From: Theristus sp. LFF4_11
Taxonomy: Eukaryota; Nematoda; Chromadorea; Monhysterida; Xyalidae
Direction: 5' to 3'
NCBI GenBank assembly: GCA_030248135.1
Contig: JASANC010002409.1
Span: forward strand, 1 to 64,000
Length of the DNA stretch: 64,000 nt
The translations under genes and the position numbers were made by a program. This document shows positions 3,685 through 34,768 of this stretch, piece after piece (position 1 is the stretch's first letter; the number at the start of each line of letters is the position of its first letter). The notes below the pieces were generated by a model. The model had not been told where the DNA came from. It ran no database searches and was given only the letters and a program-made list of their open reading frames with translations.

Positions 3685-4553
3685 TTTCAAGTATTATCTG
3701 CTTTGCTGACGACCAACTGGTGCAAATGCGTGATGGTGGTACAAAATCAATGAACGAATTGCAAGTGGGAGACGAGGTGGGAAGAACGTTTGGTTTGATC
3801 ACTAACTGACAAATCAAGCTTTTAACTGATTGATTGCATTGTTAAAGTCATCGAATTTTTTTAGGTTTTGGTTGGATATGCCACAAAACCCGTCTACAGT
3901 CCCGTGGTGACGTGGTACCACCGTAAACTAGGTGGCCTGCATGAATTCATGCAGATCACAACGGAGTCAGGCAAAACACTGAAGATCTCCCCTGAGCACC
4001 TTCTGCCCCGTGTCGCGTGTGAGCAGCAGAACGTGGACGTGCACGCACTCACGGACGCAGCTGAGTTTGCTGGCAAGGCACAGCTGGGAGAGTGTCTGTT
4101 GACAGATGACGGAATCCAAGGAAAACTACTGATGGACAAAATTGTGAAGGTATGTACACAAGAATTATTTGCTTTGCAGATTACAGGCAAATTCAAGACG
4201 ATTTGTTTTTGTTTGCAAACAAGAGTTTTGTTTCTGTACACATTTGTGCTGGACTTTCCCAGCGACTGACTTATCATCGAATTTTTGTTCGATTTGTACA
4301 ATAGATCACCCGAGTGCACTCACGTGGTGCGTATGCGCCCGTGACAGCCGAGGGAAGTCTGTTGGTCAGTGGAGTGCACTCGTCGTGCTACGCAGCCGTT
4401 GAGAGCCACCGTCTGCAGCACCAGATCGCGCAGCAGTACGTGCAGATGCAGCAGATGCTTGGAGAGTTGAGAGTCGAAAACTCAGTAGTTACAGAAGAAG
4501 TTCCGTTTGTGCTAAGGTCATTGTTGTTTGTCAACAGTGTTTTAAGGCAATAA
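3685..4553 (+). CDS. Hedgehog-type Hint domain protein, last three exons
   Basis: Exons 3685-3776, 3865-4149 and 4305-4553 join in phase. The Hint (Hog) domain is the self-splicing/cholesterol-transfer module of hedgehog proteins; in nematode warthog/groundhog-like proteins it is attached to other N-terminal domains. The catalytic Cys stands in CFADDQ right at the start of the first exon, preceded by SSII. Then come GDEVLVGY, YSPVVTWYHR, TLKISPEHLLP with the conserved His, and RGAYAPVTAEG and SSCYAAVE near the end. A Gln-rich helix follows (about QQYVQMQQML). The N-terminal secreted part and the start codon were not found; the sequence upstream of 3685 is transposon. An AATAAA overlaps the TAA stop at 4549-4554. 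Its 3' end faces that of the astacin gene. Confidence 0.82.
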
Positions 4554-5364
4554 ATTAGTTTTGTCGAAACTATCGTAAAGTTTTGCATATAAGGTTCCCT
4601 TATAATTATTTGAAAGCCAAATTTTGTTGAAAAAAAGAAATTTTGAGTGACGACCTTATAAGTATGAGCAGGTGCTAGCTACATACGAAGAACGGGTTAA
4701 AGAATTCATCGTCTTTCAGCAAAAATTCGATGTTTTCTGTTCACATATCTTGACAGGGTGGGATCTTGAGCTAAGACATTACCGTTTCAGCTGTCAGTTC
4801 ACCCTTAAATTTTCTGCTGATTCTCGCGTCCCCCTCCGTTTGTTGACGACGACGTCGTTGTCCTGTTTGTCGCCGTGGTTTTCCGTGGTGCAAAAACATC
4901 CTCTACTTATTCTATTTTTTCTGTGGCATTGTAACCATCATAATAAACGCGAATACGACGTTCCCTCAAGATCGATCTTCTCCAACGACGCCGCTCTGAA
5001 TTTCAAAATAACGTTTCTGCACTTCAATACTTATCTTTTTGCAAAACAATCAGTATTTCAAATGTGTTTGGCTTTCAACGCACTTTGAAAACGTCTCTAA
5101 CGCGGTTACTCTAACTCTCTAACTCTAACCGCAGCAAAAAAAATGAAGCAAAACAAAAAGTCTCATAAACGGGGGTGGAATCCCGCCGTGTGACGATTTT
5201 GACTAAATCACAATTTTGCATCCCGCCGTGTGACAGTCCGCCCAGGGTGGCGGACTTATAACTGGGAGGAACCTCATATGCATGTCTTTATGGTATTTTT
5301 ATGTTTTTATGCGTGTCTTTATGGTATTTTTATGTTATCAGTGACATTTGTGTCAATTTGGTCA
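4554..5364. other. Intergenic between two converging genes
   Basis: No gene is supported. The open frame at 4672-5088 lacks any recognisable domain. A short direct repeat (gtctttatggtatttttatg) lies at about 5284-5333, and a pair of cccgccgtgtgac repeats lies at 5182 and 5222. Confidence 0.5.
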
Positions 5365-8300
5365 TTAGCATGGTACAGCTGACGAAGTACGTCGGTAACG
5401 CAGGTTGAACGTGTTGATTAACCCTGTGCGAGATACCCCGCTGTAGATGACCATCGTATCAGTTGTCGAACTTGTGAATACTCCACCACTAGGCAACGCT
5501 GTTTGGTTGCACAGGCTGAGCACAACCAAATGTATGTATATGTAATGTACATACAACATGGACATGTTAATGACTAAAGGTTAGAATCAATCGCTTACAT
5601 ATGTCTACGTTCTCTACACGCATAATCGGGTAAATTGATACATTGCCCAAATGCAACGTACATGTACATGTATGTACATTGTATGTACATGTATACTCGC
5701 ATTACTCACCGAGCACCGGTGCGTGCCAGATCATCGTCCAGTTTCAGCTCGAGGTAATCATGTTCGCAAACAATCCACGGGAAGAAGCTGAACGTCATTA
5801 TTTCCAGTTCGACCTTTTCCGTTTGAAGGGCCGCCTGTAATTTGCGTATTATTTGTTATAAACAATTACTATCTTTTTACTCAGACTCAATTATTTCTGA
5901 AAGCCCGATGCATGAAACATATCTGCTTGCACTCTTGCAGTACATATTGTACAATATATGCACATTAATTTGGAAGCGACTGAGCTAAAGTACTGTTACT
6001 TTACTGACTGAAAAAGGTGTTGTACAATGTAGCGTGCTGCAAGTTTTTTCTCCAAATTTTAGTTGTTATCTTATATTCAAAATGTCTTGCTCCCAGTCAT
6101 ATAAATTTTGCATACGTGTTCTGCAGAAGGTTTTTTAGAGATAGTTCTCATTCACGGCAAACTTTTTGTTTCTTTTTTCATTTCGCGACGACAGACCTGA
6201 GCACTTGTAGAACACATGGCCTCCCACGTGAGCGGGCCCACAATTCCGTCGTCGATGAGTCCACTACTCAGCTGGAATGCTTTCACAGCTGCCTCTGTGG
6301 CTGTTCCAAACGTGCCAGTATCCGTCACACCTGTGAACACAAGGTAAGTAATAGATGGAATGGATTACCGGAATGTACATGTACAATGTACATACGCAAA
6401 TCAATATTACAAAAGAATATTTGTCCAGACAATATGTTTTTCAAAAAAAAACGGTTATGTTTCTTAGAACACACCAACAGCCCTTTGCACCTCCTTTACA
6501 CATGGGCCAGTGTCTCCCAGTTGAACTGTCGCTGTGCACGCTGTGTTGCATATCTGCAGAGATACAATCTACATGTATGTACAGTATGCCCGTTTTCCTG
6601 GCTTTAGCTAGGTGGCGGAGCTCCTAGTCCTAAACTGGTGAAACATTTTTAAACGGGGGCGGACACTTGCAAAACTTGACCCAATCCGTGTGACGACGCC
6701 GATTTCTTTTCGCTTTTGAAATTTGACTTTCCATCCCACCCACAACAAATCGCGATGAATATTTTACTGATGAAATGAGCGCCCATCTTTGAGAACATGC
6801 GAACAAGGGTTGGTTGAACTTGAACACAGAACCGCAGAGCAGACAGGTCCCCCCCCCCCCAAAAAAAAAACCAAAAAAGTGAAAACTGAAAGTGATCTGT
6901 CCATGGACAGAAAAGAGGGGAATTTTCAATGCAAAATGTCGGCCATGTGGGTATCTCTAAAAACGGACATTTCCCCCAAAACCTTCCCGCACCCGCCCGC
7001 ATCCTGTTCCCTTGGAAGTGGGAACTCGCCAAGGGTCGTCGTCGACGGAATTGAATCAAGTTTTGTAATTGTCTGGTAACTAGAAAAAAATGTTTCACGC
7101 CGTGTGAATGGTGGTATTGTTTGAAACTGGACCTAGCAATGAAGAGGAAAAAGGGCATACATAAACATGTATTCATGCATGTGCTGGCAAAACATACTTT
7201 ATCAGAAGAACGGTCAGAATGGTTTAGTCAATGAGTTTGTACGGCAGAAAGAAACGCTGGGATCCCAGCGACCGACACTGCAACTTTGGAAATTGTTACA
7301 CTTGAGAAAATGGCCGCTGAACGTTCAGCGGATATCAGCGATATCGCTCAAGATTCCGCCGCTGAACGTTCAACGGCCATTTTCTCTAGTGTATATCAGG
7401 TCGCTGAGGTAGTGCAGTCGGTAAGCTAGCCGAAATTTTATTTTTCTGCGGCCATGTCGTACCTTGATAAGATAGTTGCATCGACCGGCACCGGTGGCAG
7501 TGATGGTCTTCCATTGACAAGTGGCCGTCAGATCGATAGCAGCGCCGCATGTGCTTGTAGTTGTAGCTGCTCGTTCACAACACGATCCTCCGAATCCGCC
7601 AGGGCATTTGCACTGAGCGCAATTGTTCGGATCAGCGTAGCCATTGTACTGACAGCCAGACGGACATGTGGACGGTGGTGACGCAGTGGGGCAAACAGCT
7701 GTTGTTTTGCTGTGTATATTTTGCACAGGACAGAGCAATTGCAATGGTAAAAAATAGACTTCACAAAGAAGAACCTACCAGCGCAATAGGCGACATTGAT
7801 AAATCTAGCGTCGTAAAACGACATCGCATCTTGTCCGATTGTGTGCTGATAATTAGCGTCATTAGTTGTGATTACGTAACCGGTCGCATTTGGGTGTTCG
7901 AAGTGCTGCACATGGTTTCAGGTGATATTATCAAAGCGGGCGCATAATGCGGCAACACACCATATAGTTTTGGCCATCATGCGGCAATAGTTTCCACTTC
8001 ATTGTGTAGCAGCTGTTGCCGCATGAGGTATAAGAGGGTCAGTGCAACAAGCAAAAAGTAGCACAAAAAACAACCACGAGAATCGAGAAATTCAAAAAAA
8101 AGAAAGAAAAAGCAGAAAACAAACAACTCAAAAAGGGAGAGAATATTGGCAAACAACAAAACTGTACAGAACACAAGGCAAAAGAACAAGCAAGCAAGGC
8201 CAAAATTTTTTTACTTATTTCCACCATTTTTTGGCCTTGCTTGCTTGTTGTTTTGCCTTGTGTTCTGTAGAGTTTTGTTGTTTACCAATATTCTCTCCCT

Positions 8301-11300
8301 TTTTTGAGTTGTTTGTTTTCTGCTTTTTCTGTCATGTTGTTTTTCGTTCCGTTCTTGTCACAGCTTTGAATTTCTCGATTGCCGTGGTTGTTTTTTGTGC
8401 TGCTTTTTGCTTGGTCTACTTTTGCTGTTTATTTTAGGCCCTGACGATGGTGCACGGGTGGCACCGAAACTGTCGGCAATCATGCGGATGCGCGAGCGAG
8501 CGCCAGCGAGCGGACAGCGCATCACGCATAATATGAGCCGTTATCCCCTCGCGCGCTTTTTTCAAATTTGCTCGCTGCGTCCAGCGAGCATAGTATAAGC
8601 CACAAACTTGGTTCCGTGCACACGAAACGAACACCCAAAGTTGTGCTTGGAGCCGCGAAAAAATTTTTATTCGACTACTTTTCATACGCTGTAGACACGA
8701 AAAACCTATTCTGAAAACAGTGTTACTTCTTTCCCTTTGTCCTTTTTTTTCAGGTATGTAATCAACATGTGTTCGCCCTTTAAATTTTTACCTGCGACAC
8801 TTTCACAGTCGAACAAAAATGTTCCCTGGGGTAATTCCACCCGGAGATTTTGAAAATTGGGTTAATTTTTTACCCCGACCCTGTTTTTGGGTAAAAATTG
8901 GGCATTTTTAATTGTTCGGAGGGTTTTCACCTGGTTTTAAGTGTTCGCCCTTTCAATTTTTAGCTGGGACACTTTCACAGTTGAACAAAAATGTTTCCTA
9001 GGGTAATTTCATCCGTATTTTTTGAAAATTTAGTTAATTTTTTTGCCCGGGCACTTTTTTGAGTCAAAATTGTGCATTCTTTGAAAGTTCGTAGCATTTT
9101 GACTGGGTATCAGTTTTTCACTCTTACAAATTTTGTCTGAGCTGCGAAAAATAGTAGGAAAAAGGTCTAGTCCGTAGTAATTCAATGCGCTGATCACGGA
9201 TTTTGGGCTAGTTTTCTTACGTGAGCAACTCTAGATGCTGAATCGTGACGATTTCGGGCGAATCGGCCGTCGAAATTGGCGAAATCGGTCCAGAAACGAA
9301 AAACAAGAAAACTATGTTTTCCAGGGTAATTCAATGCGCTGATCACGGATTTTGGGTTAGTTTTCTTACGTGAGCAACTCTAGATACTGAATCGTGTCGA
9401 TTTCGGGCGAATCGGCCGTGGAAATCGGCGAAATCGGTCTAGAAATGAAAAACAAGAAAACTATGTTTTCCAATGTAATTCAATCCGCTGATCACGGATT
9501 TTGGGTTAGTTTTCTTATGTGAGCAACTCTAGATACCGAATCGTGACGATTTCGGGCGAATCGGCCGTCGAAATTGGCGAAATCGGTCCAGAAACGAAAA
9601 ACAAGAAAAAGGTGTTTTCCAGGGTAATTCAATGCGCTGATCACGGATTTTCGGTTAGTTTTCTTACGTGAGCAACTCTAGATACTGAATCGTGACGATT
9701 TCGGGCGAATCGGCTGTCGAAATTGGCGAAATCGGTCCAGAAACGAAAAACAAGAAAAGGGTGTTTTCCTTGGTAATTCAATGCGCTGATCACGGATTTT
9801 GGGTTAGTTTTTTATGTAAGCAACTCTAGATGGTGAATCGTGACGATTTCGGGCGAATCGGCCGTGGAAATTGGCGAAATCGGTCCAGAAATGAAAAACA
9901 AAAAAACGGTGTTTTCCTTGGTAATTAAATACACTGATCACAGATTTTGTGTTAGTTTTTTTATGTGAGCAACTCTAAATACCGAATCGTGATGATTTCG
10001 GGCGAATCGGCCGTCGAATTTAGTGAAACCGGTCCAGAAATGAAAAACAAGAAGTCGGTGTTTTCCATGGTAATTCATTGCGCCGATCACGGATTTTGGG
10101 TTAGTTTTCTTATGTGAGCAACTCTAGATACCGAATCGTGACGATTTCGGGCGAATCGGCCGTCGAAATTGGCGAAATCGGTCCAGAAACGAAAAACAAG
10201 AAAAGGATGTTTTCCAGGGTAATTCAATGCGCTGATTACGGATTTTGGGTTAGTTTTCTTACGTGAGCAACTCTAGATACTGAATCGTGACGATTTCGGG
10301 CGAATCGGCCGTGGAAATTGGCGAAATCGGTCCAGAAACGAAAAATAAGAAAAGGATGTTTTCCAGGGTAATTCAATGCGCTGATCACGGATTTTGTGTT
10401 AGTTTTTTTATGTGAGCAACTCTAGATACTGAATCGTGACGATTTCGGGCGAATCGGCCGTGGAAATTGGCGAAATTGGTCCAGAAATGAAAAAAAAAAA
10501 AACGGTGTTTTCCATGGTAATTAAATACACTGATCACGGATTTTGTGATAGTTTTTTCATGTGAGCAACTATAGATACCGAATCGTGACGATTTCGGGCG
10601 AATCGGCCGTGGAATTTAGTGAAACCGGTCCAGAAATGAAAAACAAGAAGTCGGTGTTTTCTATGGTAATTCATTGCGCCGATCACGGCTTTTGGGTCAG
10701 TTTTCTTATGTGAGCAATTTCTAGGTACTGAATCGTGACGATTTTGGGCGAATCGGCCGTAGAAATAGCATAGACGAAATTGGCCTAAAAACGAAAAATG
10801 AAAAACCTGAGTTGTGTGCCCAACGTATTGTGATTTTGGTCCGACCTTCGGGGCTTATGTAAAAGTCAGAATATTATCTAAAAATGCGGGAGACGCATAT
10901 AAAAGGAGGAATATGGCCTTGTGTAAGCAGTGAAAGACTTGGCTCGACAACCTTTTCAAGTCTCTGATGTGGTACACACGGATACAAGTACATAAGAGTC
11001 ATATTTTTGCGCCGTTTATTTTTTATTTAGGTTGCAAGTGGCAACCCTCGTACATTGTAGACAAATGAAACTTTCACATTTGCCTTTTTCTAGCATTTAG
11101 CGACCTCTAAAACCACTAAAATAACGATCAGACTTTAGATCGCTGACACTGGTTTGCACAAAGTGTATCGCAGAGGCATTGGGAACGCAAGGTCTCCTTC
11201 TGTGGCAATGACTCACCGGTTTATCCTGTCACAAGAGTTTGGTAAAAAGGGTGAAAATCAACGGAAGACAACACTTTTTGCACTGGTGCTGCTGTATGCA

Positions 11301-14300
11301 CAGCGGTGCGTACGTTAGCAACAACGATAAAGCTACATGCAGCAATGTTTTGCAATCTCTGATGTTTCTGTTTTTTTGCACAGAATTTACAGTATAGCCG
11401 ATTAAACATGGCAGCTTTTTTCAGGGTGCAAGGAGCGCGCGAATTTTGAATAAAAGAAAAAGAAGTTCAGAAACCAAATTGTATGCCAAATTTGACGCGT
11501 TTTTTAAGCTAATGGATTATCCGTATTATTCTGTTCATTCTTTCTCCCTTGCACACATGATTGGAAATTATGTTGGCATTTTTGAAAAAGACAACTCCTA
11601 GTCAGCGACTAATCCCGCCTTGATGGACTGCCTCATTTATTCGGCCATGCTGTACAGAATTTCGCACATGATGTGATTTTAGACTAAACTGAAGAGGACA
11701 ATTGAAAAATATCTAGATAACTTCAAAATTTTTACGCTTTTCAACAAGCTTGTAAACAACAAACGCGGCGCAAAAATATGACTCTTATGTACTTGTATCC
11801 GTGTGTACCACATCAGAGACTTGAAAAGGTTGTCGAGCCAAGTCTTTCACTGCTTACACAAGGCCATATTCCTCCTTTTATATGCGTCTCCCGCATTTTT
11901 AGATAATAATAATAACATCAAAAAAACCAACTGTGGTGAATCGAGTACAAAATACACAAATTATCATCTGATGCAAACAGTCGTTTTTTGCCAATAAAAA
12001 GACATTGGGTGGGTACGGTATGCATGCTGCCTGCGTAAGCGGTAGGTAATATCAAAAAAGAGAGAGCAGGAGAGATGTGCCTCGTGTCGTGGTGTGTTTT
12101 TGTGAGGGTGACACATATGTGTGTTTAGGTGGGGGGTGGGGCGGGTGCGAGAGCGAAAAGCAGGGTATGTGGGGAGAAATTCGGATAAATATTTATTTTG
12201 AACACATCTCATATGCAGGGTGGCCCTGTTTGTTAGATGTTACCCATTTGTTTTGTTTTTTGATTTCGCGCATGTGCATTGATTGCTTTTGATTTTTTTG
12301 AATTTATAAGAATAATACGGTAATAAAAATTTGTTTGGTACCAAAATTTTGAAATTTGAGCAACTGAAACGTCCGCTACAGTCGTTTCAAATTTTGGAAC
12401 GATTTTCTCCATGTTTGCTCTTTGGAATAGCTGGATCTTTTAGAAGAGCTGGATTTCGTAATCGAACTACACCGGGAACATTTTGAAAAACCTTCCAGTG
12501 GAATGGTTTCTAGCAGTTTTTGAGTGGAAACTTCAAAATTTGAGCGGAAATGCGTTGTTTTAGCGGAAATTTGCTAATTTGCGTTTTCACCAATTTCTTC
12601 GAATTTTCTACGATTGCCAAATTGTTGGATCTTTGTGAAAATACCACATTTCAACTGTGTTTTCTGTTTCTTTTTTAATGCAGCTCATATCTGAAAAAGT
12701 TCATTCTAAGTGCTAGGGAGCCTCACATTGACAATGAATGACTGGAAAAGCCGCAAGCAAGTAAAAAATTGTGCCAAAAATTGAGACGTTTCAGTCGCTC
12801 AATTTCAAAATTTTCGTGCCAAACAAATTCTTGTCGTCTCTTCTACAAATCTTGAAAAAATAATGAAAAACGGTGATATCATGTTGAGTTTGTATTTTAT
12901 GTTCACGAAATATAGCTTTGCCACGCCAACTCACGAACTCACTGATTTCATGTGCCACGGTGCCAACAGAGGTGCAACCGTCACCGATTGAAATGCCCTG
13001 ACCACCGGGCCTCCAGCCTGACTGTCGTCCAAGCGCCGAATAGCAACTGCAATTCTATTATACATGTTCATGTACCGCAAATTGTCAACATCCAGAGTAC
13101 CAGACCAAACAAATATAGTGAAATATTCTGTAATCGCAGGTTCAGTTTTTACTGTAAAAAGTGCAGTTTGCAACATGAACATAAATGTATACAGATGATA
13201 AGCGTCGGAACTATGAAGTTTGCAAAGAAAATCCACAAACGTATGTTCACCCCGATCCTTTGAAGAATTTGATACAGTCGTCAAATAAACATTGGCTCCA
13301 CGTCGCAAGGACAAATCGTACGCAAGTGTTGTCTTGGATCAGTTGGATGCCAGCGTTCACGGCGACTTGGTCAACTGGAAAGTAAAATGTGGTTTATGCG
13401 GAATAAATTTCACAGTCAGACAGTTTACAAATTTGTATACTTACATGTATGAAATCAATGAAAGAACAAGACGCCGATTTTACTTTGCGGGACAGGATAT
13501 ACCCTATTGTAGCTTTCTGCAGACAGGAAGAATCATAAAGGTGAAATAATGAAAATTATGCATAAACAGCAAATCCTCGATGATAATTTACCGCTGCCTC
13601 TAAAGAAGGAGGAGCCAAATCGGTACTTGATTGTTGGCTGCTGTGGCCAACGTTCATCCTGATCAGGCGTAATACGCCTCTTCACAATAACGTGACCACT
13701 GTCCGAACTGCTATCAAGAAGCGCGAGTAGCGTCGGCGACGGTTCATCATTCGACTCCAACATAGCAAGGTTGACTTGTTCGCGGGCATCACTGCGATAT
13801 GCGAAATGTACACAGGGTGTCTAAAAACTACAACACTCTCAAAAAAATACCGTATGAAACGGTTTCAGAAACATTATGACACGGTTTCTGAAACCGCGGA
13901 ATACGGTTTCAAAAGGCGCATGCGAATTTTGAAACCATGATTCCGCGGTTTCAAAACCGTGCCCCACGGTTTCAGGAATCGGACGACGTCGTCTGGAAAA
14001 CCCGCACGTTGTCGTCGTTTTGATGCCTGAAACCGTGGGGCACGGCTTCTGGAACCGTGTCATACGGTAACTTTTTTAGAGAGTGAATGGAGAAATTGCT
14101 CTCACTCGTGCATGTTTTTGATCCACATGTACATGTACATGTACATGTACGGTACCTGCGTTCTTCCGAACGACTCTGGAATTTTGCACACTTACATTGT
14201 ATAGCGGAAGGGCTACAATAGGTTGTAAGCTGATGAGCTCAATGGAATTCTAAATATGTAACATACACTTTACGGTACTGACACAGCAAACAAATACACG

Positions 14301-17300
14301 AATTCACAGCGACATAATAACAGGCCAGTGCGTCAATCAATTCATGTCCACGTGCTTACGATTGCTCAATTTCTTCTCATACGAACTCCATTTGCCTTTT
14401 GAGTGTCTATTTTATCGTGATCGTGTGGTGAAAAGGTGATAAAAGGATAAAAACACCTGATAAAATAACAAAACATTCCTAAGCAGCCTAAATATCGGGA
14501 AAAACTCAGTCCAATGGGGCTAAAAATTGAAAAAAACCAAAGTTTAGACCACAAAGTATCTACATGTACATGTACATACGACTAAAATTTCACCATTGGT
14601 CAAAAACGAGTGACGAGTTATTAGCTGCAAAGATTGTATCACAACTTCTGGGACACACTACTGTATACATGTACCTGAGTAGTTGGTCCATTTGCCGCTC
14701 GCTCAGGATGATGTCACCCTCGAATAAGTTTGGAATCGGATTCTCGGGGTCAGTGCTGTCAATCAACAGCTGAGGCGGTGGTTCTTCGAGTACCTTTGGC
14801 ACAAGCAATGTGACACTAGGCATTTTTTGTAATTTTAACTCTGAGGAAGATACGGTGTGCCCCACATCTGTATATAGGGTTGCGACTGTACTCCGCACAA
14901 AAAGTTACCGTATGACACGGTTCCAGAAACCGTGGGCCACGGTTTTTGAAACCGCGGAACACGGTTTCAGAAGGCGCAAGCTAATTTTGAAACCGTGTTC
15001 CGCTGTTTCAGGCATCAAAACGACGACGACGTGCGGGTTTTTCAGACGACGTCGTCCGAATCCTGAAACCGTGGGGCACGGTTTCTGAAACCGCGGAACA
15101 CGGTTTCAAAATTCGCATGCGCCTTCTGAAACCGTGTTCCGCGGTTTCAGAAACAGTTTCATACGATAACTTTTTTTGGGAGTGCAGGTCATTCCCAAAA
15201 ACATGTAATACCGACATTGCACAAGTCCTCACAACTGCGCAAAATTTTCTAAAGTTTTGCAGTACAAACGGCAACATCTGCTCACTCATGGGTGGTTCCC
15301 AGCGAACTTGTGGGGGGACAAAAAACAAACTGTATGGCGTCCAAAAATTGAGGCGCCTTATATCTGGTGTTTTAGCTTCATAAAATAAATCATCTGATGT
15401 TACTTTGGTCAGAAACAAAAGTTTACCGACTATTGGTGTGAGAAAAACGCGCAATTCCGAATGCGCAACAATGCATGCAACAGGCGCATGCACAATCTTG
15501 GATTTTGACAATTTTCAAACAATCGAGTGTTGTGCATGATACGTTTGATCATGATTTGTTTTGGGCTGAAAATTGAATACAACAAATGTGTCCCCACGGA
15601 TAGTATGCCCGTAAAAATTTTCAGCCCAAAAGATGCAAGCACGCGCTAGTAGTAACCGGTTTCACTCAGATCAAAAATTCACTCGTGCTTCGTGAACTTC
15701 ACGGATAATATCCGTGAGGTGGCCGGATTGCCTTAACTCCGGCAGGTTCCCGCTCCGTTTTGCCCACCGTCCAATATTGAGCATGGGCTGCCGGAGTTAA
15801 GACAATCCGGCCACCTCACGGATATTATCCGTGAAGTTCACGAAGCACGAGTGAATTTTTGATCTGAGTGTTGTAATTGTCACATTTTTTGGGACACCCT
15901 GTATATTTTTTGTTGCTTTTTGCGCGTGCCCACAAACACCAAGCTAACTTGCGCTTGAGATGCGCACGTACGGTACTGCTGTTTTTACAAACCTGGCCAG
16001 TAAGCAAGTACTCAGACAAGCCGTGCAGCGTGCGATACGTGTACTCCAGTTTGTCGTAAGTCGCCGGGTAAATGTAACCTGCGTCGACGAATTCCTGTAA
16101 AATACAGAGTAAAACCGTGAATTAGATACAGACGAAGTTTTGTTGCCAAAATACAAAAAACCGAAAAAAAAGTTTTTTTTTCAGACGACCAATCAGCGTC
16201 CGTGCATAAGTGACACGAGCGCCGCGCTATGGTAAAATCGAAAAAAACTTCGTCTGGGGCAGACGAAGTTTCGTTTTTTTTGGGTTTTTTTTTGGATTTT
16301 TGCAAAAAAACTTCGTCTAGTGCAGACGAACACTCATTAAAATAGTAGCCGTGGCCCACGACAACACATTTCAAATCGACTAGAATTTTGTAGCCGTGGC
16401 CCATTTTCGTTTTTGTTGCCCGCTAGCCGGGCCACACGCTGCAAAACGCGTTTTCGTTGCCCGCTAGCCGGGCCACAGATTTGTGTGAGTGAAGTCCTGA
16501 CCTCAAGTTTTTTTTGACAAACCTGCGTACTAGCAGCACAAATCGACTGCCATGTTTGCGGGCCCACAATTCCGTCAACGGTCAGGTTGTTTGCCTGCTG
16601 GAAACTTTGTACGCCCGATGTCGTGTCCGGTCCAAAGATTCCATCGACGGTCACGTCTACGCAAAGGGAAATTCGCTGTATCCTGGGTACAGCGAATTTC
16701 CCTCAGGTGTATGATCTAATTTGTTTCATTTCTGCGCACCTCAGAGCCAGTAGATTGTAAAACTGGGTAACGCTTGTTTGAAAAAAGTAAACCATATCGA
16801 AATGGAAGAAGGAATAGACTAAAATAACAAAAATAATAAAGGCTTGACTCGATTGTAGAGAATCGACCCTAGCCTAATACCGTATTACCCCCATTAAACC
16901 CCCCCCACCATTAATCCCCCCCCCCACCAATAAACCCCCACCCCCCCGACCAGTTTCCAAATAATCCCCCCCCCCCACAAATAATCCCCCATGGGGGTTA
17001 ATTGGAAACCTGTTTGAAACACATACCCAGCGAATTCAGTGGCTGAATGCAGTGACATTGGTGAAATTGTGCTACCAAAGGCCCCAAATGGATGAGTTAA
17101 TGGTAATTTCATTACAAAAGGCTGTTACAAAAGAAAATCTCTGTGAAAAGTAGAAGTTTCTGCAACTTTCTTGCCTGCCATGCAAGGTATTTTTGCCATT
17201 TTTCAACAAAACCCCACCCCTAGAAATTTTTGTATAATAAACCCCCCCACCAATAATCCCCCCCCCCACCAATAAACCCCCACCCCTAAAAGTCGCTGAC

Positions 17301-20300
17301 GTATTAATCCCCCATGGGGGTTTATTGGGGGTAATACGGTAGTGCACAAAGTTTTTCTGATGAGCTGATCCAAAAAATTATCGGTTTTTGAAAAACTGAC
17401 TACATACACGGATTTTAGAGCCAAAAGCGATTTTGTTGACCCCAATTTTGGGTCAATTTACAAAAATGGCTCCAACTCGCTTCTGTTGCCAGCATTTGAA
17501 ATAAACAAAAACAGGCTTGTACAGGGTATCGCAGAAGTAGAGGGCTGGGCACCCCTTTGAAACGCTGTAACTCGTGACCCGATGGACCATTCGGTCCAAA
17601 ATTTTAAACTTAGCTTCAAGGGGTTCTAAATTAGATGTTCGCCAAGTTTTAGCCCAAATGAAGCAATTTTACCAAAGTTTTTGGCGGAATACTGAAAAAT
17701 AGCCATTTTCGGTCTTATTGTCTACCGCAATTGTTCTTGTTATTTGCGGCTGGAAGGTTATTTGTTGCGAATAACCTACATTTCTGATCCACCTCCCAGT
17801 GTTATAAGCACACAAAAGTACGAAGAAAAGCGGAAAAATAAGTTGGCTGTCGCAGACCTTGTAGTTTGAGACCAAGTTCTTTTTAGCCATTTTGTAAATT
17901 GACTCAAAATTAGGGTAAAAAATCATTTTTTGCCACAAAATGCGATGATGTGGTCAGTTTTTTCAAAAATATATAATTTTTGGACACATCCTCATCCAGG
18001 CGGTTCGATTCGAACGATCTCAGAGTAGGGCTTTTTGGGCAAATTTTATGCACGGGTGCCTTGATGGTGGGAGCTTGGGCTGGTATTATCAAAATAAATC
18101 GAAAAGATTAGGTCAAAAAACTATGCCCCACTTGTAACTCTCTGCACCGTTCTCACACAGTCGCCAGTGTCTCCCTCACGCAGTGTTGCTGTGCACGCGA
18201 ATGTGCATATCGGTGCTGAAATCAATTAATCAGGTTATATGGTTAATCAATTACATGCACAGGGTTGTGTATCAAATGGAAGACAATTTTTTTTAGCAAA
18301 ACGGAGTTAGACCATTATTCTTTACATTACCTGGTGTGCTGGTGCTGGTGCTGGTACAAACATTGTCGATTGCCGCCCACGTGTTTGGGCCCACAATGCC
18401 GTCAACGGTGAGTCCATGTGCCTGCTGGAAACTTTCCACTTTTGTTTTAGTCTCTTGTCCAAAGATGCCATCCACGACCGCGTCTGAGACAAATGTTCGT
18501 GAGAATTGAAGACTTTGGAATAGGAATGACAACGCACATTATTATCAGAACACCTGCTGCAAAAACTGTAAAGCTGTTCTTCTTTTTCGACACAAATTCT
18601 AAGAGAAAGCCTTACCGACAACTTGTTGCACCACTTCAACACAGCTGCCAGAGTCGCCAACGCTCAGCGTTGTATCCATGCAGCCAGCCGTTGAGCATGA
18701 CGGTGCTGCTACAGGAATTAATGAAAGAAGATTTGAATTTGATTGAATTTGATAAAGAAATGTACATTATGGGGGTAATCGTGACAAAACGAACCGGGAA
18801 GGGAAAACTGAACTACTGAACTGAATTGAACTGTTCTACCTGTAGTTGTGGTCGTTGGGGTTGTAGTTGTAGTTGGCCCACCACAGAATCCACAGTGCTT
18901 TCTGCAGTGATATTCAGTCCAGTGCGGGAAGGGAGCACAGTCGGCCGTGTATTGGTCGCAATAGGTGATCAGATCAACGCAGGGGGCTGTGAGTATACTG
19001 AGTCAACCTTTGAGTTTTGAGACGAAAAAAGATGAAAGAATGAATGAGAGTTGAGACTGAAAGTCTAAAGTTGGTCAAAAGAACTAAAATATTGGAATTT
19101 TTTCCTACTAGTAGTTGTTGTCGTAGTAGTAGTAGTTGTGGTTGTGGTTGTTGTCGTGGTTGGTCCTCCACAGTATCCACAAGTCTTGCGACAGTCTCTA
19201 GAAGCCCATTCTTCAGAGCATGATGCCGTGTGGTCATGGCAGTACCAAAGATTGTCAATGCATTCACCTTTAGGAATGTACATATATGTAAGTGAATCTG
19301 GACTTATTTGATCGTAAAGAACTCAAAATTTCAATAGAGATAAGTCTTACTCACTCACCTGTTGTTGTTGTAGTCGTTGTAGTTGTAGTGGTTGTTGTTG
19401 TGGTTGTAGTAGTTGTTGTTGTCGTTGTTATACCCGTTGTCGTTGTTGTAGTGGTTGTGGTTGTTGATGTTGTTGCGGGCGGTGTACAAAATCCACAGCT
19501 CAATCGACAATGATAGCTGGTCCAGTGATTGTTTTCCTCTGAGCAGTCGGCCAAGTACACATCGCAGTATGTGATCAGATCTTGGCAAATCTCGGCTGAA
19601 GAGAAGAGTAAATAAAATCTTTGTTTTTCCGAAGTCATGCATGTACCCAACTGAATGTAAAGGGAACTGGTGAATTAGTATACTTGTAGTTGCGGTTGTA
19701 GTGGTGGTTGGGGTAGTAGTAGTTGTTGTTGTTGTTGTAGTTGTGGTAGTTGTCGTTGTCGTTGTTGTGCCCGTTCCTGTTGTCGTTGTTGTAGTGGTTG
19801 TGGTTGTTGATGTTGTTGCGGGTGGTGTACAAAATCCACAGCTCAATCGACAATGATAGCTGGTCCAGTGATTGTTTTCCTCTGAGCAGTCGGCCAAGTA
19901 CACATCGCAGTATGTGATCAGATCTTGGCAAATCTCGGCTGAAGAGAAGAGTAAATAAAATCTTTGTCTTTCCGAAGTCATGCATGTACCCAACTGAATG
20001 TAAAGGGAACTGGTGAATTAGTATACTTGTAGTTGCGGTTGTAGTGGTGGTTGGGGTAGTAGTAGTTGTTGTTGTTGTTGTAGTTGTGGTAGTTGTCGTT
20101 GTCGTTGTTGTGCCCGTTCCTGTTGTCGTTGTTGTAGTGGTTGTGGTTGTTGATGTTGTTGCGGGTGGTGTACAAAATCCACAGCTCAATCGACAATGAT
20201 AGCTGGTCCAGTGATTGTTTTCCTCTGAGCAATCAGCCAAGTACACATCGCAGTATGTGATCAGATCTTGGCAGACGACTGAAAAACATGCAAAATTTCA

Positions 20301-20695
20301 ACATTTGGTCACTAATTGAATTTTATTAATTAATTAATTAACTATAGTACGTACGCACTAACTGGTACTTACTTGTGGTAGTTGTCGTTGGGGTTGTAGT
20401 TGTTGTTGAAGCCCCTGCAGGCGGTGAACAGAATCCACAGCTCAATCTACAGTGATAGCTGGTCCAGTGATTGTTTTCCTCTGAGCAGTCAGCCAAGTAC
20501 ACATCGCAGTACGTAATCAGATCTTGGCATTCGGCTATAAAAAACAGATTTTACTTGAGAGATAACCTAAAAATCAATTTTTCCGTTCAAAATTTTCCAG
20601 CACAATCAAGTACGTATAAACATACTTTGCGCTTTTGCTTCGCTCACGCAGATGACTGCGACAATCAACTTGATTATAGTTGTGAATGACACCAT
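5365..20695 (-). CDS. Secreted ShK6-PGBD2-astacin-EGF-CUB metalloprotease (zinc-site exon not found)
   Basis: Model (transcription order): 20626-20695 signal peptide starting MVSFTTIIKL; ShK domains 20373-20534, 20027-20278, 19684-19938, 19359-19595, 19109-19267, 18840-18986, five followed by long Thr runs; PGBD-A 18616-18708 + 18331-18483; PGBD-B 18132-18215 + 16523-16656; linker 15993-16094; propeptide 14675-14838 (NLFEGDIILSE); 13592-13791 with KRR then WPQQPTIKYRF (maturation site, mature start); 13251-13374 (DNTCVRF); 12943-13046 (GSGCYSALGR, GTVAHEI, first two residues of HExxHxxGxxH); gap; 7779-7905 (starts at the H after the Met-turn, ends INVAYC); 7463-7698 EGF (CKCPGGFGGSCC) and CUB start; 5710-5834 and 5365-5515 CUB end. 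All phases close, and a missing exon of length 2 mod 3 is required at 7906-12942. Astacins are secreted zinc endopeptidases; PGBDs bind bacterial cell wall or act as prodomains in MMPs. Whether the protein is active is unknown. Confidence 0.85.
5657..5694. repeat. acatgt microsatellite
   Basis: Irregular run of acatgtac units in a short intron of the astacin gene. Similar runs occur at 14128-14151 and, shorter, at several other places. Confidence 0.7.
6197..6553 (-). CDS. PGBD-C, a two-exon peptidoglycan-binding module inside a CUB intron
   Basis: Exons 6475-6553 and 6197-6330 give a full PGBD: VQLGDTGPCV, then TFGTATEAAVKAFQ, then DDGIVGPLTWEAMC. The split point matches that of PGBD-A and PGBD-B. 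The pair is 213 nt, enters and leaves in phase 0, and lies in the phase-0 intron 5835-7462 that separates the two halves of the CUB domain of the astacin gene. It has acceptor and donor sites (cag before, gtctgt after), so it could be spliced in as a cassette, skipped, or be a relic. The frame is fully open. Confidence 0.7.
6637..7105. mobile_element. Possible MITE with gtgaaacattttt ends
   Basis: gtgaaacattttt at 6637 is matched by its reverse complement near 7090. The interior holds a C/A tract and no gene. No clear target duplication was seen, so this is tentative. Confidence 0.35.
7298..7393. repeat. 96-bp near-perfect palindrome
   Basis: The arms read acacttgagaaaatggccg ... cggccattttctctagtgt, with a second internal palindrome gctgaacgttcagc. 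It is a small foldback element in the CUB intron of the astacin gene. Confidence 0.75.
8040..8425. mobile_element. 385-bp foldback element
   Basis: The left arm (gcaacaagcaaaaagtagca onwards, 8044-8205) pairs with the right arm (8225-8422) over about 160-170 bp, with a loop of roughly 20 bp near 8205-8225. It lies in the interval where the missing astacin exon is expected. In nascent RNA it would form a long hairpin. Confidence 0.75.
8689..11906 (-). mobile_element. Repeat family A, copy 2 (3.2 kb, inverted)
   Basis: In reverse orientation: TIR element 10874-11906 (ends ttatctaaaaatgcgggaga), 149-bp array about 9170-10800 (about eleven units), then a 480-bp tail at 8689-9170 beginning ctgtagacacgaaaaacc. 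Nearly the same sequence occurs in the opposite direction at 31184-34424, including segments that copies 1 and 3 lack (for example ggcgggattagtcgctgact). It sits in the astacin gene between the exons on either side of the zinc site. Confidence 0.85.
11911..12301. other. Unique intronic sequence
   Basis: Read on both strands for the missing astacin exon. No HExxH continuation, Met-turn or other domain was seen. Only a G-rich stretch (aggtggggggtggggcggg) near 12127 stands out. Confidence 0.4.
12302..12850. mobile_element. Degenerate CAGGGTG-type MITE, internal part
   Basis: tttgtttggtaccaaaattt near 12329, with ttgagcaactgaaac, is answered by the inverted form near 12785-12830. This is the same family as 21225-21966 and 30624-31183, but both outermost ends are eroded. 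Confidence 0.6.
13834..14085. mobile_element. Foldback MITE, 'accgtatgacacgg' family, copy 1
   Basis: cactctc at 13834-13840 and gagagtg at 14079-14085 bound repeated palindromic blocks of the type ggtttc-agaaacc and a central cgacgtcgtc. It lies in the intron before the mature astacin exon. Confidence 0.75.
14889..15184. mobile_element. Foldback MITE, 'accgtatgacacgg' family, copy 2
   Basis: Same block structure as 13834-14085, starting actccgc...gttaccgtatgacacgg and ending in the degenerate inverse gataac...gggagtg. It is intronic in the astacin gene. Confidence 0.75.
15663..15870. mobile_element. 208-bp foldback MITE with about 85-bp arms
   Basis: cactcagatcaaaaattcac at the left is matched almost base for base by gtgaatttttgatctgagtg at the right. 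The arms continue through ggatattatccgtga and ccggccacctcac. It lies in an intron of the astacin gene. Confidence 0.85.
16119..16480. repeat. agacgaagttt inverted repeats and two short duplications
   Basis: cagacgaagttt and its inverse aaacttcgtctg occur at least five times at about 16125-16330. Next to them, gtagccgtggccca is repeated near 16346 and 16390, and cgttgcccgctagccgggccaca near 16413 and 16455. The stretch is intronic. Confidence 0.6.
16878..17341. mobile_element. G/C-tract MITE (accgtattaccccc ends), copy 1
   Basis: The ends are taccgtattaccccc and gggggtaatacggta. C tracts near both ends (about 16900-16990 and 17240-17320) and a middle segment (gcgaattcagtggctgaatg) are shared with 27138-27587. 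The copy lies in the intron that splits PGBD-B. Confidence 0.85.
19596..20281. repeat. Tandem 343-bp duplication of a ShK exon with its intron
   Basis: The block 19596-19938 (intron plus ShK3 exon) is repeated almost without change as 19939-20278. The intron text tgaagagaagagtaaataaa occurs in both. ShK4 (19359-19595) is also very close. This is a recent unequal-crossing-over product. Confidence 0.9.
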
Positions 20696-26494: not shown

Positions 26495-29270
26495 TTATCT
26501 AAAAATGCGGGAGACGCATATAAAAGGAGGAATATGGCTTTGTGTAAGCAGTGAGAGACTTGGCTCGACAACTCTTTTCAAGTCTCTGATGTGGTACACA
26601 CGGATACAAGTGCATAAGAGCCATATTTTTGCGCCGCGTTTGTTGTACTACAAAGTGTAAAACAGTTTTAAAATTATTTTTAACTGTCCTTTCCAGTTTA
26701 GTCCGCAATCACATCATGTGCGAAATTCTGTGCAAATTCTGTGCAGAACTTCTGTAAATCAAATATCTGTAAATTCTGTGCAAAAACAGAAAAATCAGAG
26801 ACTGCAAAACATTGTTTCATGTGGTTTTATCGTTGCTAACGTACGCATCGCTGTGTACACACCAGCATCAGTGACAAAAAGGTGTTGTCTTCCGTTGATT
26901 TTCAGCCTGTTTACCTCTAGTGGCAGGATAAACTGTCTGTCCCGTGAGTCGTTGCCTTTGCCACAGAAGGAGACCTTGCGTTCCCTAATGCCTCTGCGAT
27001 ACACTTTGTACTGGGCAAACCAGTATCAGCGATCTGAAGTCTGATCGTTATTTTAGTGGTTTTAGTGGTCGCTAAATGCCCGAAATACCGCAAATGTTGA
27101 AGTTTTAATTGTCTACAAAGTACATGTGCAACCGAAATACCGTATTACTTCTATTAACCACCCCCCCCCCCCATATTAAACTCCCCCCAAAACAAAACCC
27201 CCACCCCCTCGACAAGTTTCCAAATAATCCCCCATCCAAAATAAACCCCCATGGGGGTTTATTAGAAACCTGTTTGAAACACATACCTAGCGAATTCAGT
27301 GGCTGAATGCAGTGACATTGGTGAAATTGTGCTACCAAAGGCCCCAAAGGGATGAGTTAGTGGTAATTTCATTACAAAAGGCTGTTACAAAAGGAAATCT
27401 CAGTGAAAAGTAGAAGTTTCTGCGACTTTCTTGCTGCCATGCAAGGTATTTTTGCCATTTTCAACAAACCCCCACCCCTAGAATTTGTTTGTAAATAACC
27501 CCCCCCCCCCCCCCAAAAAAAACCCCCACCCCCAGAAGTCGGTAAAGAAATAAACCCCCATGGGGGTTTATTAGAGGTAATACGGTAGTGAATAAACGGC
27601 GCAAAAATATGGCTCTTATGTACTTGTATCCGTGTGTACCACATCAGAGACTTGAAAAGAGTTGTCGAGCCAAGTCTCTCACTGCTTACACAAAGCCATA
27701 TTCCTCCTTTTATATGCGTCTCCCGCATTTTTAGATAATATTCTGACTTTTACATAAGCCGCGAAGGTCGGACCAAATTCACAATTCGTTGGTCACACAT
27801 TCTTCTAAACCCCGGAGAACTCAGGTTTTCATTTTTCGTTTTTGGGCCGATTTCGCCTATGCTATTTCTACGGCCGATTCGCCCGAAATCCTCACGGTTC
27901 AGTACCTAGAATTGCTCACATAAGAAAACTGACCCAAAAGCCGTGATCGGCGCAATGAATTACCCTGGACAACACAATTTTCTTGTTTTTCATTTCTGGA
28001 CCGATTTCGCCAATTTCCACGGCCGATTGACCCGAAATCGTCACGATTCGGTATCTAGAATTGCTCACATAAAAAAACTAATCCAAAATCCGTGATCAGC
28101 GCATTGAATTACCCTGGAAAACAACCTTTTCTTGTTTTTCGTTTCTGGACCGATTTCGCCAATTTCCACGCCCGATTCGCCCGAAATCGTCACGATTCAG
28201 CATCTAGAGTTGCTCACATAAAAAAACTAACCCAAAATCCGTGATCGCCGCATTGAATTACGCTAGGAAACACCCTTTTCTTGTTTTTCGTTTCTGGACC
28301 GATTTCGCCAATTTCCACGGCCGATTCGCCCGAAATCGTCACGATTCAGTATCTAGAGTTGCTCACATGAAAAAACTAAAACAAAATCCGTAATAAGCGC
28401 ATTGAATTATCCTGGAAACACCGTTTTCTCATTTTTTTGTTTTTGGACCGATTTCGCCAATTTCCACGGCCGATTCGCCCGAAATCGTCACGATTCAGTA
28501 TATACAGTTGCTCACATAAAAAAACTAACCCGAAATCCGTGATCAGCGCATTGAATTACCCCGGAATACACCACTTTCTCATTTTTTGTTTTTGAACCGA
28601 TTTCGCCAATTTCCACGGCCGATTTCCCCGAAATCGTCACGACTTTGGTTATTTAACAACTATTCCTTTGATTTTTTCAAAAATAAACATCAAATTCAAA
28701 CTCTCCGTTGTTGGTTACCCCTAGAAATTGTTTTATTTGTCAAATAACGGTTTGTTTCACGCGCAGAAATCGCAAATACACGTCAAAATAAGCATTTTTC
28801 GTAATTTTGTACAAACAAGCTAAATTTAAAGCCTTGGGAAGCATCGGAGAAAAAAATGAATGCGAAATTTGAAAATCCCAAAGATTTTTACCCTAGAAAA
28901 TGTTTTTCTCATAATAGTCAGAATTTTCTTTATATCACTGAAACTGCGTACACATTTTATGACATGGCCGAAAAAAAAAGGGGGGGGAGAAGAATAAGTA
29001 ACAGCTTATTCAGAATCGATGTTTTGCGCACACAGCGTGTGCAGAAGGTCACCACGAAAAAATTTCTCCTGCAGACAGCTTACCTATGGATTATCCACCT
29101 GTGTGCAGGAGAAAAAATTCTCAGCTCCTTTTATGTTCACAATGCGAGGCACAGAAAGTTTGGAATTTTAGCGCGAACGACAGATGGGCCATATTATGCC
29201 TGCATCCGCTGTCCGCTCCGCTAGCGCTTCGCTCGCGAATGGGCATGATATCCATGCCTTTTCAAATAGA
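26495..29270 (+). mobile_element. Repeat family A, copy 3
   Basis: TIR element 26495 to about 27742, split by the G/C-tract MITE at 27138-27587; then a 149-bp array at about 27830-28640 (five to six units); then a tail to about 29270 like that of copy 1. No coding capacity was seen. Confidence 0.82.
27138..27587. mobile_element. G/C-tract MITE, copy 2
   Basis: The ends are taccgtattacttc and gaggtaatacggta. The middle shares gcgaattcagtggctgaatg and gctgttacaaaag with the copy at 16878-17341. It is nested in repeat family A copy 3. Confidence 0.85.
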
Positions 29271-31183: not shown

Positions 31184-34100
31184 TTATCTAAAAATGCGGG
31201 AGACGCATATAAAAGGAGGAATATGGCCTTGTGTAAGCAGTGAAAGACTTGGCTCGACAACGCTTTTCAAGTCTCTGATGTGGTACACACGGATACAAGT
31301 ACATAAGAGTCATATTTTTGCGCCGCGTTTGTTGTTTAAAAGCTTGCTGAAAAGCGTAAAAACTTTGAAGTTATCTAGATATTTTTCAATTGTCCTCTTC
31401 AGTTTAGTCTAAAATCACATCATGTGCGAAATTCTGTACAGCATGGCCGAATAAATGAGGCAGTCCATCAAGGCGGGATTAGTCGCTGACTAGGAGTTGT
31501 CTTTTTCAAAAATGCCAACATAATTTCCAATCATGTGTGCAAGGGAGAAAGAATGAACAGAATAATACGGATAATCCATTAGTTTAAAAAAACGCGTCAA
31601 ATTTGGCATACAATTTGGTTTCTGAACTTCTTTTTCTTTCATTCAAAATTCGCGCGCTCCTTGCACCCTGAAAAAAACTGCCATGTTTAATCGGCTATAC
31701 TGTAAATTCTGTGCAAAAAACAGAAACATCAGAGATTGCAAAACATTGCTGCATGTAGCTTTATCGTTGTTGCTGACGTACGCACCGCTGTGCATACAGC
31801 AGCACCAGTGCAAAAAGTGTTGTCTTCCGTTGATTTTCACCCTTTTTACCAAACTCTTGTGACAGGATAAACCGGTGAGTCATTGCCTTTGCCACAGAAG
31901 GAGACCTTGCGTTCCCAATGCCTCTGCGATACACTTTGTGCAAACCAGTGTCAGCGATCTAAAGTCTGATCGTTATTTTAGTGGTTTTAGAGGTCGCTAA
32001 ATGCTAGAAAAAAGCAAATGTGAAAGTTTCATTTGTCTACAATGTACGAGGGTTGCCACTTGCAACCGAAATAAAAAATAAACGGCGCAAAAATATGACT
32101 CTTATGTACTTGTATCCGTGTGTACCACATCAGAGACTTGAAAAGCGTTGTCGAGCCAAGTCTTTCACTGCTTACACAAGGCCATATTCCTCCTTTTATA
32201 TGCGTCTCCCGCATTTTTAGATAATATTCTGACTTTTACATAAGCCCCAAAGGTCGGACCAAAATCACAATACGTTGGTCACACATTCTTCTAAACCCCG
32301 GACAACTCAGGTTTTTCATTTTTCGTTTTTAGGCCAATTTCGTCTATGCTATTTTTACGGCCGATTCGCCCAAAATCGTCACGATTCAGTACCTAGAATT
32401 GCTCACATAAGAAAACTGACCCAAAAGCCGTGATCGGCGCAATGAATTACCATGGAAAACACCGATTTCTTGTTTTTCATTTCTGGACCGGTTTCACTAA
32501 ATTCCACGGCCGATTCGCCCGAAATCGTCACGATTCGGTATCTAGAGTTGCTCACATGAAAAAACTAACACAAAATCCGTGATCAGTGTATTTAATTACC
32601 ATGGAAAACACCGGTTTTTTGTTTTTCATTTTTGGACCGATTTCGCCAATTTCCACGGCCGATTCGCCCGAAATCGTCACGATTCGGTATCTAGAGTTGC
32701 TCACATAAAAAACTAACCCAAAATCCGTGATCAGTGCATTGAATTAACATGGAAAACGCCGTTTTCTTTTTTTTCATTTCTGGACCGATTTCGCTGAAGT
32801 CCACGGCCGATTCGCCCGAAATCGTCACGATTCTGTAACTAGAGTTGCTCACTTGAAAAAACTAACACAAAATCCGTGATCAGCGCATTGAATTACCCTG
32901 GAAAACACCCTTTTCTTATTTTTCGTTTCTGGACCGATTTCGCCAATTTCCACGGCCGATTCGCCCGAAATCGTCACGGTTCAGCATCTAGAGTAGCTCA
33001 CGTAAGAAAACTAACCAAAATCCGTGATCACCGCATTGAATTACCCTGGAAAACATCTTTTTCTCGTTTTTCGTTTCCGGACCGATTTCGCCAATTTCCA
33101 CGACCGATTCGCCCGAAATCGTCACGATTCAGTATCTAGAGTTGCTCACATAAGAAAACTAATCAAAAATCCGTGATCAGCGCATTGAATTACCATGGAA
33201 AACACCCTTTTCTTGTTTTTCGTTTCTGGACCGATTTTGCCAATTTCCACGGCCGATTCGCCCGAAATCGTCACGATTCAGCATCTAGAGTTGCTCACGT
33301 AAGAAAACTAACCCAATATCCGTGATCAGCGCATTGAATTACCCTGGAAAACATTTTTTTCTTGTTTTTCGTTTCTGGACCGATTTCGCCGATTTCCACG
33401 GCCGATTCGCCCGACATCGTCACGATTCAGCATCTAGAGTTGCTTGCATAAAAAACTAACCCAAAATTCGTGATCAGCGCATTGAATTACCCTGGAAAAC
33501 ACCCTTTTCTTGTTTTTCGTTTCTGGACCGATTTCGCCAATTTCGACGGCCGATTCGCCCGAAATCGTCACGATTCAGTATCTAGAGTTGCTCACGTAAG
33601 AAAACTAACCCAAAATCCGTGATCAGCGCATTGAATTACTCTGGAAAACACCCTTTTCTTGTTTTTCGTTTCTGGACCGATTTCGCCAATTTCGACGGCC
33701 GATTCGCCCGAAATCGTCACGATTCGGTATCTAGAGTTGCTCACATAAGAAAACTAACCCAAAATCCGTGATCAGCGCATTGAATTACACTGGAAAACAT
33801 AGTTTTCTTGTTTTTCATTTCTGGACCGATTTCGCCGATTTCCACGGCCGATTCGCCGGAAATCGTCACGATTCAGCATCTAGAGTTGCTCACGTAAGAA
33901 AACTAACCCAAAATCCGTGATCAGCGCATTGAATTACTACGGACTAGACCTTTTTCCTATTATTTTTCGTAGCTCAGACAAAATTTGTAAGAGTGAAAAC
34001 TGATACTCAGTCAAAATGCTACGAACTTTCAAAAATGCACAATTTTAACTCAAAAAAAGTGCCCGGGCAAAAAAATAAACTAAATTTTCAGAAAATACGG

Positions 34101-34424: not shown

Positions 34425-34768
34425 GCCCAGTATAGCTTGAACACTTTGAAAAAACCGAAGCAGACCACTAACGTATTTACAGTGTTGACCGACGTAGTTT
34501 GGTGCGCACATGCACGTGTTGTCCGGCGTTACAGTGCCTCCGTTGAAGCAACTGAACAGGCAAACATCATCATTTTAACGTTGACACAACATAAACATCA
34601 TCATAATCACTATTTGCCACTGTTCAAACAGTATCTCATCGTCTGACTGGTCGGAATCATGCCGACTGAATCAACCTACCGCAATGAAGTCAAGTGACAA
34701 ATTGAAGCATCCGAGCATTGATGCACGCACCAAGCGCAAACAAACATTCACACATGCTCCCCAACTCA
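34425..34768. other. Downstream flank of the EGF protein gene
   Basis: No gene seen. The frames at 34416-34646 (+) and in the Thr-rich exon on the plus strand are shadows. Confidence 0.4.

Follow-up and report, generated by a model that had tools for sequence, protein, structure and literature searches.

We analyzed the first 64 kb of contig C1555 from the nematode Theristus sp. LFF4_11 (hereafter the window; the assembly comprises 159 Mb in 3744 contigs), where a preliminary description had proposed a gene joining ShK domains and peptidoglycan-binding domains (PGBDs) to an astacin metalloprotease. Twenty minus-strand exons with AG/GT boundaries, running from 20695 to 5365, join in phase into a model of 1013 amino acids (aa) with a single terminal stop codon. 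The order of its parts is a signal peptide, six ShK domains, two PGBDs, a NAS-34-like propeptide, a partial astacin domain, an EGF-like domain and a CUB domain. The features of the locus are as follows.

20626-20695, minus: exon 1, signal peptide MVSFTTIIKLIVAVICVSEAKAQ (best 9-residue hydropathy 3.2)
20373-20534, minus: exon 2, ShK1 (Pfam)
20027-20278, minus: exon 3, ShK2 and Thr-rich linker, in a 343-bp tandem duplication
19684-19938, minus: exon 4, ShK3 and Thr-rich linker
19359-19595, minus: exon 5, ShK4 and Thr-rich linker
19109-19267, minus: exon 6, ShK5
18840-18986, minus: exon 7, ShK6 (below the Pfam cut-off)
18616-18708, minus: exon 8, first half of PGBD1
18331-18483, minus: exon 9, second half of PGBD1 (PF01471, 5.4e-13)
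18132-18215, minus: exon 10, first half of PGBD2
16523-16656, minus: exon 11, second half of PGBD2, phase-0 end CAG/GTTTGT (PF01471, 2.9e-12)
15993-16094, minus: exon 12, start of the NAS-34-type propeptide, EFVDAGYIYPATYDKLEYTYRTL (homologous exon in L044 and L045, boundaries by eye)
14675-14793, minus: exon 13, propeptide with FEGDI motif (paralog alignment)
13592-13791, minus: exon 14, propeptide end and astacin start (Pfam Astacin from position 1)
13251-13374, minus: exon 15, astacin
12935-13046, minus: exon 16, astacin to VAHEI(SEF); paralog-type donor 12943, in-phase alternative 12935
7906-12934, minus: intron at the expected place of the catalytic exon; no HxxGxxH exon found
8688-11910, no strand: 3.2-kb repeat in that intron
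7779-7905, minus: exon 17, C-terminal part of astacin (TIGQ-DAMSFYD...AYC)
7463-7698, minus: exon 18, EGF-like part and first part of CUB (58% identical to C1058)
6475-6553, minus: first half of PGBD3, cassette exon in the CUB intron, phase-0 start
6197-6330, minus: second half of PGBD3, phase-0 end CAG/GTCTGT (PF01471, 3.6e-10)
5710-5834, minus: exon 19, middle of CUB
5365-5515, minus: exon 20, end of CUB and stop codon

The earlier claim of 20 exons in exact phase was borne out as a 1013-aa frame, but only with the second of two GTGAGT donors of exon 16 (12935). One exon had to be moved: the exon following 16523 had been placed at 14838, whereas homology to two paralogs in this genome, on contigs C1058 and C1692, gives an exon at 16094-15993 and then a start at 14793. 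On the joined model, the Pfam matches to PG_binding_1 (7.8e-28, two stretches), Astacin (2.1e-19) and ShK (2.7e-14) are far beyond chance. Five of the six ShK domains that we assigned, as had been proposed, pass as Pfam stretches; ShK6 alone, in a shorter piece, scores 18.8 bits, under the cut-off of 20.9. The EGF-like part has no Pfam match, and CUB, at 15.3 bits against a cut-off of 21.4, is unlisted for the joined model. We nevertheless retained both domains, as previously assigned, because they are homologous to NAS-34-type proteins and to the C1058 paralog, whose CUB passes Pfam. Within 19379-20273, a 343-bp tandem repeat of ShK exons with 96% matches indicates a recent expansion of the ShK array.

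A first homology search was swamped by bacterial PGBDs (best 120 of 3915; 7994 candidates scored) and was rerun with the region after the PGBDs. This returned nine database matches (7991 candidates scored), all nine from nematodes, the best being Trichinella NAS-34 (P0121; 7.5e-37). We assigned the gene as NAS-34-like from these matches and from the order astacin-EGF-CUB; homology across the propeptide and on either side of the catalytic core makes it an astacin (M12A) by descent. It shares the FEGDI propeptide and the astacin-EGF-CUB order with P0121 and with the C1058 and C1692 paralogs, and identity to C1058 is 53-64% by piece. Nine exon boundaries, compared by eye, agree in phase with both paralogs: the start and end of exon 12, the start of exon 13, the end of exon 16, the start and end of exons 17 and 18, and the start of exon 19. 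Unlike these relatives, the window gene has six ShK domains and two PGBDs upstream, a third PGBD in its CUB intron, and no catalytic exon that we could find; C1058 and C1692 carry the catalytic exon, with no PGBD match on their contigs.

The junction between the two halves of the gene lies between exons 11 and 12. Exons 2-11 all start in phase 1, and exon 11 ends in phase 0, meeting the phase-0 start of exon 12. The latter is the counterpart of a C1058 and C1692 exon that likewise opens with EF in phase 0, and on C1692 a signal-peptide-like exon precedes this counterpart (by eye). Between exons 10 and 12 we counted two signal-peptide-like ATGs, compared with a mean of 2.15 and a maximum of 7 in 100 base shuffles, so that a separate astacin signal peptide is not indicated above chance. 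The proposed placement of ShK domains and bacterial-type PGBDs directly upstream of astacin-EGF-CUB, in phase, was upheld. Indirectly, these observations suggest that the ShK-PGBD array occupies the place expected for a signal peptide of the astacin itself.

A third PGBD (3.6e-10), which the preliminary description had overlooked in naming two, is encoded by two exons (6553-6475 and 6330-6197) within the CUB intron, whose position and phase 0 are common to the window gene and both paralogs. All three PGBDs score above the PF01471 gathering threshold. The cassette is of phase 0-0, and the protein would be 1084 aa with it and 1013 aa without it. The donors that close PGBD2 and PGBD3 are homologous and of phase 0 (...ASTQ/gtttgt and ...TSAQ/gtctgt), and each faces a phase-0 acceptor.

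The catalytic domain is incomplete. In the joined model, the best Pfam match to Astacin extends over profile positions 1-87 of 189, whereas in the closest paralog, C1058, it spans 1-189; a separate Pfam run gave 7.7e-21 with two stretches, the second unplaced but presumably exon 17. The joined exons pass from ...GTVAHEI to a piece beginning shortly before TIGQ, and the intervening C1058 exon encodes HALGFWHEQSRPDRD...YDYGSAMHY. The HE of HExxHxxGxxH is present in the gene; the remainder and the Met-turn were not found. A six-frame motif scan of the window gave no HxxGxxH-type motif in or near the gene. Searches of the window for the approximately 61-residue catalytic exon, by tblastn with five queries (best E values 0.22, 0.29, 0.42, 0.55 and 1.9), gave none plausible among the matches listed, and a hidden Markov model (HMM) of the same five sequences reached 0.27 at best. 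On L044 and L045 this HMM gave 2.6e-37 and 5.1e-38, a circular result in that both exons are among its five rows. The Trichinella protein served as the independent control: by tblastn it detected the L044 and L045 catalytic exons at 1.4e-19 and 2.9e-20. Genome-wide, the C1058 catalytic exon had 67 matches (150 of 156 candidates scored), and near-full-length matches of at least 60% identity were listed only on C1058, C1692 and C655, each of these contigs having matches for further exons of its own gene as well. The propeptide of the proposed astacin, with its FEGDI, and an Astacin match stood, whereas the complete catalytic domain did not. Nor could the suggestion of an active astacin aimed at the cell wall be maintained, since coding sequence for the Met-turn and for two of the three zinc ligands is lacking in the assembled gene.

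The place of the missing exon is taken by a 5.0-kb intron made mostly of repeats, in which stretches of at least 60 bp without a match elsewhere in the window total 829 bp. Its 3.2-kb unit (8688-11910) is 94.6% identical to 34426-31180, in inverse orientation and 20 kb away. Perfect inverted repeats of 143 bp (10872-11014 and 11766-11908, 751 bp apart) look like those of a recent DNA transposon. A 149-bp satellite forms four arrays (1421-2781, 9177-10766, 27832-28642 and 32357-33937), two of them within the 3.2-kb repeats. Donor 12943 corresponds to the phase-1 end of the exon that precedes the catalytic one in C1058 and C1692. Joining this donor to 7905 shifts the frame and leads to a stop after residue 812; the second GTGAGT, 8 nt further on, restores the frame (AHEISEF-HFEHPN), and the four exons after the gap have no in-frame stop before the last codon.

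We then considered what kind of PGBD the gene carries. Of 79 database domains extracted, 40 were compared with the three PGBDs; these were treated as bacterial (few have names), and the best reach 51-56% identity. Identity to the prodomains of this genome's two matrix metalloproteases (MMPs) is 16-24%. They match the PG_binding_1 domains of bacterial and phage wall-lytic enzymes (PDB 3bkh, 2.7e-11; 9xps, 4.3e-11) but, unlike these, are split by a phase-1 intron, have extra Cys residues and are fused to animal domains. A profile search of the genome gave 10 PGBD exon matches on seven contigs: three on C1555, two on C1882 and one each on C1239, C1056, C2567, C1730 and C1630. We take the PRCGxPD cysteine switch to be the hallmark of MMP prodomains, and the C1730 and C1630 matches to be identified as such by their PRCG/KRCG motif; the motif was seen on both contigs, and Pfam was run on one of them. 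PRCG is absent from all three window PGBDs, which belong to the Pfam family of an animal prodomain but lack its switch and have low identity to it. The eight non-MMP matches begin at profile positions 17-21, consistent with a shared split.

The C1882 matches belong to a gene that, joined by eye, encodes a signal peptide, two PGBDs and an Amidase_2 domain (8.2e-32), split by introns (approximately 3444-6413 of L022, which is C1882:9000-18900). The best 120 of 2876 relatives of the amidase are labelled Amidase_2 and are bacterial where named, the closest listed being 56% identical. With its named relatives in Pseudomonadota, this amidase is likely a horizontally acquired wall hydrolase. The presence of PGBDs on a bacterial-type amidase in the same genome supports both wall binding as the role of PGBDs and their bacterial descent. 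Three further regions (L019, approximately 8560-9030; L021, approximately 4520-5080; L023, approximately 4200-4820) encode small proteins that begin with a signal-like stretch and carry one PGBD of bacterial type, split at a position similar to that in the window PGBDs.

Taken together, the domain combination is real and unusual, and the gene is best filed as a NAS-34-like astacin by descent that, on the present sequence, is not an active one. We tentatively favor, at somewhat less than an even chance, a single nematode astacin paralog with a new domain combination, whose product would most likely be a secreted, multivalent, non-proteolytic binder of the bacterial wall with a dead protease core. 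One gene would have been assembled through exon shuffling. In a NAS-34-like gene for astacin-EGF-CUB, the exon for the signal peptide would have given way to a ShK/PGBD array of phase 1, made up of a signal peptide, six ShK domains on Thr-rich stalks and two PGBDs, and the CUB intron would have received a two-exon cassette with a third PGBD. Because the assembled core is without the exon bearing two of three zinc ligands and the Met-turn, the product is expected to bind rather than cleave. Binding to the bacterial wall, or to a glycan polymer related to it, would fall to the PGBDs, and spacing and cross-linking to the ShK domains and the Thr stalks; the leftover astacin-EGF-CUB would be a scaffold or a truncated remnant. 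We regard as doubtful a more specific proposal, a functional secreted pseudo-protease in which bacterial PGBDs that arrived with, or spread out of, a horizontally acquired family of wall hydrolases entered an astacin gene twice by shuffling (upstream and inside CUB), converting a hatching- or moulting-type enzyme into a multivalent wall binder such as an immune opsonin or a gut or mucus agglutinin.

Several points weigh against the favored reading. The joining of exon 11 to exon 12 in a single transcript, the use of donor 12935 and the splicing of PGBD3 into the transcript are predictions of the gene model. Wall binding by the PGBDs is plausible, with homology as its whole basis, and the PGBD domain tree gave the nematode PGBDs no supported single origin. 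The two Astacin stretches in one Pfam run mean that the C-terminal piece is still recognizable, and the remaining protease exons are open and retain FEGDI, as could also be true of an enzyme that was active until recently. At a repeat as similar to its other copy as the one in the gap, sequence could be collapsed during assembly and an exon lost from view. Shorter catalytic-exon matches (57-72% over approximately 25-31 residues) are listed genome-wide and were not each traced to a gene. Finally, the ATG at 17890 (hydropathy 2.99, compared with 3.2 and 3.4 for two accepted signal peptides) is a fair candidate for a separate signal peptide.

The rival that survives best, though on the unlikely side, is that the organism has the catalytic exon and that the assembly lost it by collapse between the 3.2-kb repeat copies, leaving an active astacin aimed at the bacterial wall through its PGBDs. 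The open protease exons and kept FEGDI, the donor 12943 in the paralog phase and the repeat filling the gap speak for it. Rates of change point both ways. Against C1692, the window gene has 102/233 identical residues in propeptide and protease and 63/145 in EGF-CUB, where C1058 has 133/229 and 73/145. With Trichinella P0121 as the yardstick, the faster change vanishes (74/198 and 46/156 for the window gene, 77/194 and 41/153 for C1058), as the lost-exon rival and not the favored reading would have it, and relaxed constraint on the protease part is therefore only weakly indicated. By contrast, residues of the remaining core are altered, with a four-residue insertion ahead of ISIG and the Arg of IGQR missing, and the three near-full-length catalytic-exon matches of at least 60% all belong to the C1058, C1692 and C655 genes. 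Real exon loss, for instance by recombination between the repeat copies, and assembly collapse would yield the same sequence; the lack of any N in the window leans mildly toward real loss.

Somewhat less probable is a two-gene arrangement: a secreted ShK6-PGBD2 protein would end in exon 11 or beyond it, the astacin-EGF-CUB part downstream would be a pseudogene in decay, and PGBD3 would be a stray or nested piece. Passages of PMC4974336 report from filariae a secreted protein, nLs_04059, that has six ShK domains without being an astacin; it resembles the window gene in its six ShK domains and secretion, and no PGBD appears in those passages. Secreted single-PGBD genes exist in this genome, exon 11 can be read for 61 further residues before a stop, the paralog-type splice disrupts the frame, and 17890 offers a candidate signal-peptide start. 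However, exon 12 has the start phase and the EF of its paralog counterparts, and the end of exon 11 fits that phase; ATGs resembling signal-peptide starts occur ahead of exon 12 no more often than by chance, and the four post-gap exons stay open. The earlier suggestion that the PGBDs form an MMP-like latency prodomain, which draws on the shared Pfam family and the two MMP prodomains with PRCG/KRCG in this genome, is very improbable, and we rejected it on low MMP identity (compared with 51-56% to bacterial-type domains), the absent PRCG and the astacin's own FEGDI propeptide.

According to passages of a review (PMC9848320), the additional domains found downstream in helminth astacins are of over 100 different kinds, which would make an unusual combination in itself no rarity. 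Passages of PMC2824743 give C. elegans astacin subgroups II and IV SXC/ShK domains in a C-terminal extension; the window gene has astacin and ShK in common with them, but its six ShK domains are N-terminal. The same passages assign a TSP1 domain to subgroup V (nas-33 to nas-38) and eggshell digestion to hch-1/nas-34. A Pfam scan of the 1013-aa model gave no TSP1, and we therefore did not file the gene under subgroup V. An astacin with a bacterial-type PGBD was not found in the literature searched, among the matches listed. No publication matched all three of astacin, "peptidoglycan binding domain" and nematode; in passages of the one matching peptidoglycan-binding, astacin and ShK, the phrase stands in a reference title; the main text of a publication with all three terms of a broader query has no PGBD; and a term search found "peptidoglycan" absent from the main texts of PMC9848320 and PMC2824743.

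Both animal families are greatly expanded in the assembly, with at least 155 astacin and at least 150 ShK exon matches. Elsewhere in the window, an F-box open reading frame (ORF) lies at 58890-59387 on the minus strand (F-box-like, 1.7e-9), and a Thr-rich stretch beside EGF-like pieces at approximately 34470-35040, also minus (tblastn), perhaps belongs to another Thr-rich extracellular protein. A further ORF is presumably cuticle-collagen-like, which, together with the nine matches from nematodes alone, points to a nematode genome.

If the exons form one transcript, this gene would provide an astacin with bacterial-type PGBDs, a combination absent from the publications considered above. In that case, cell-wall-binding modules would also have spread across a nematode genome in the form of exon cassettes, joining an amidase, small secreted proteins and a protease scaffold, and the gene would offer a testable case of a hatching-type protease turned binding protein.

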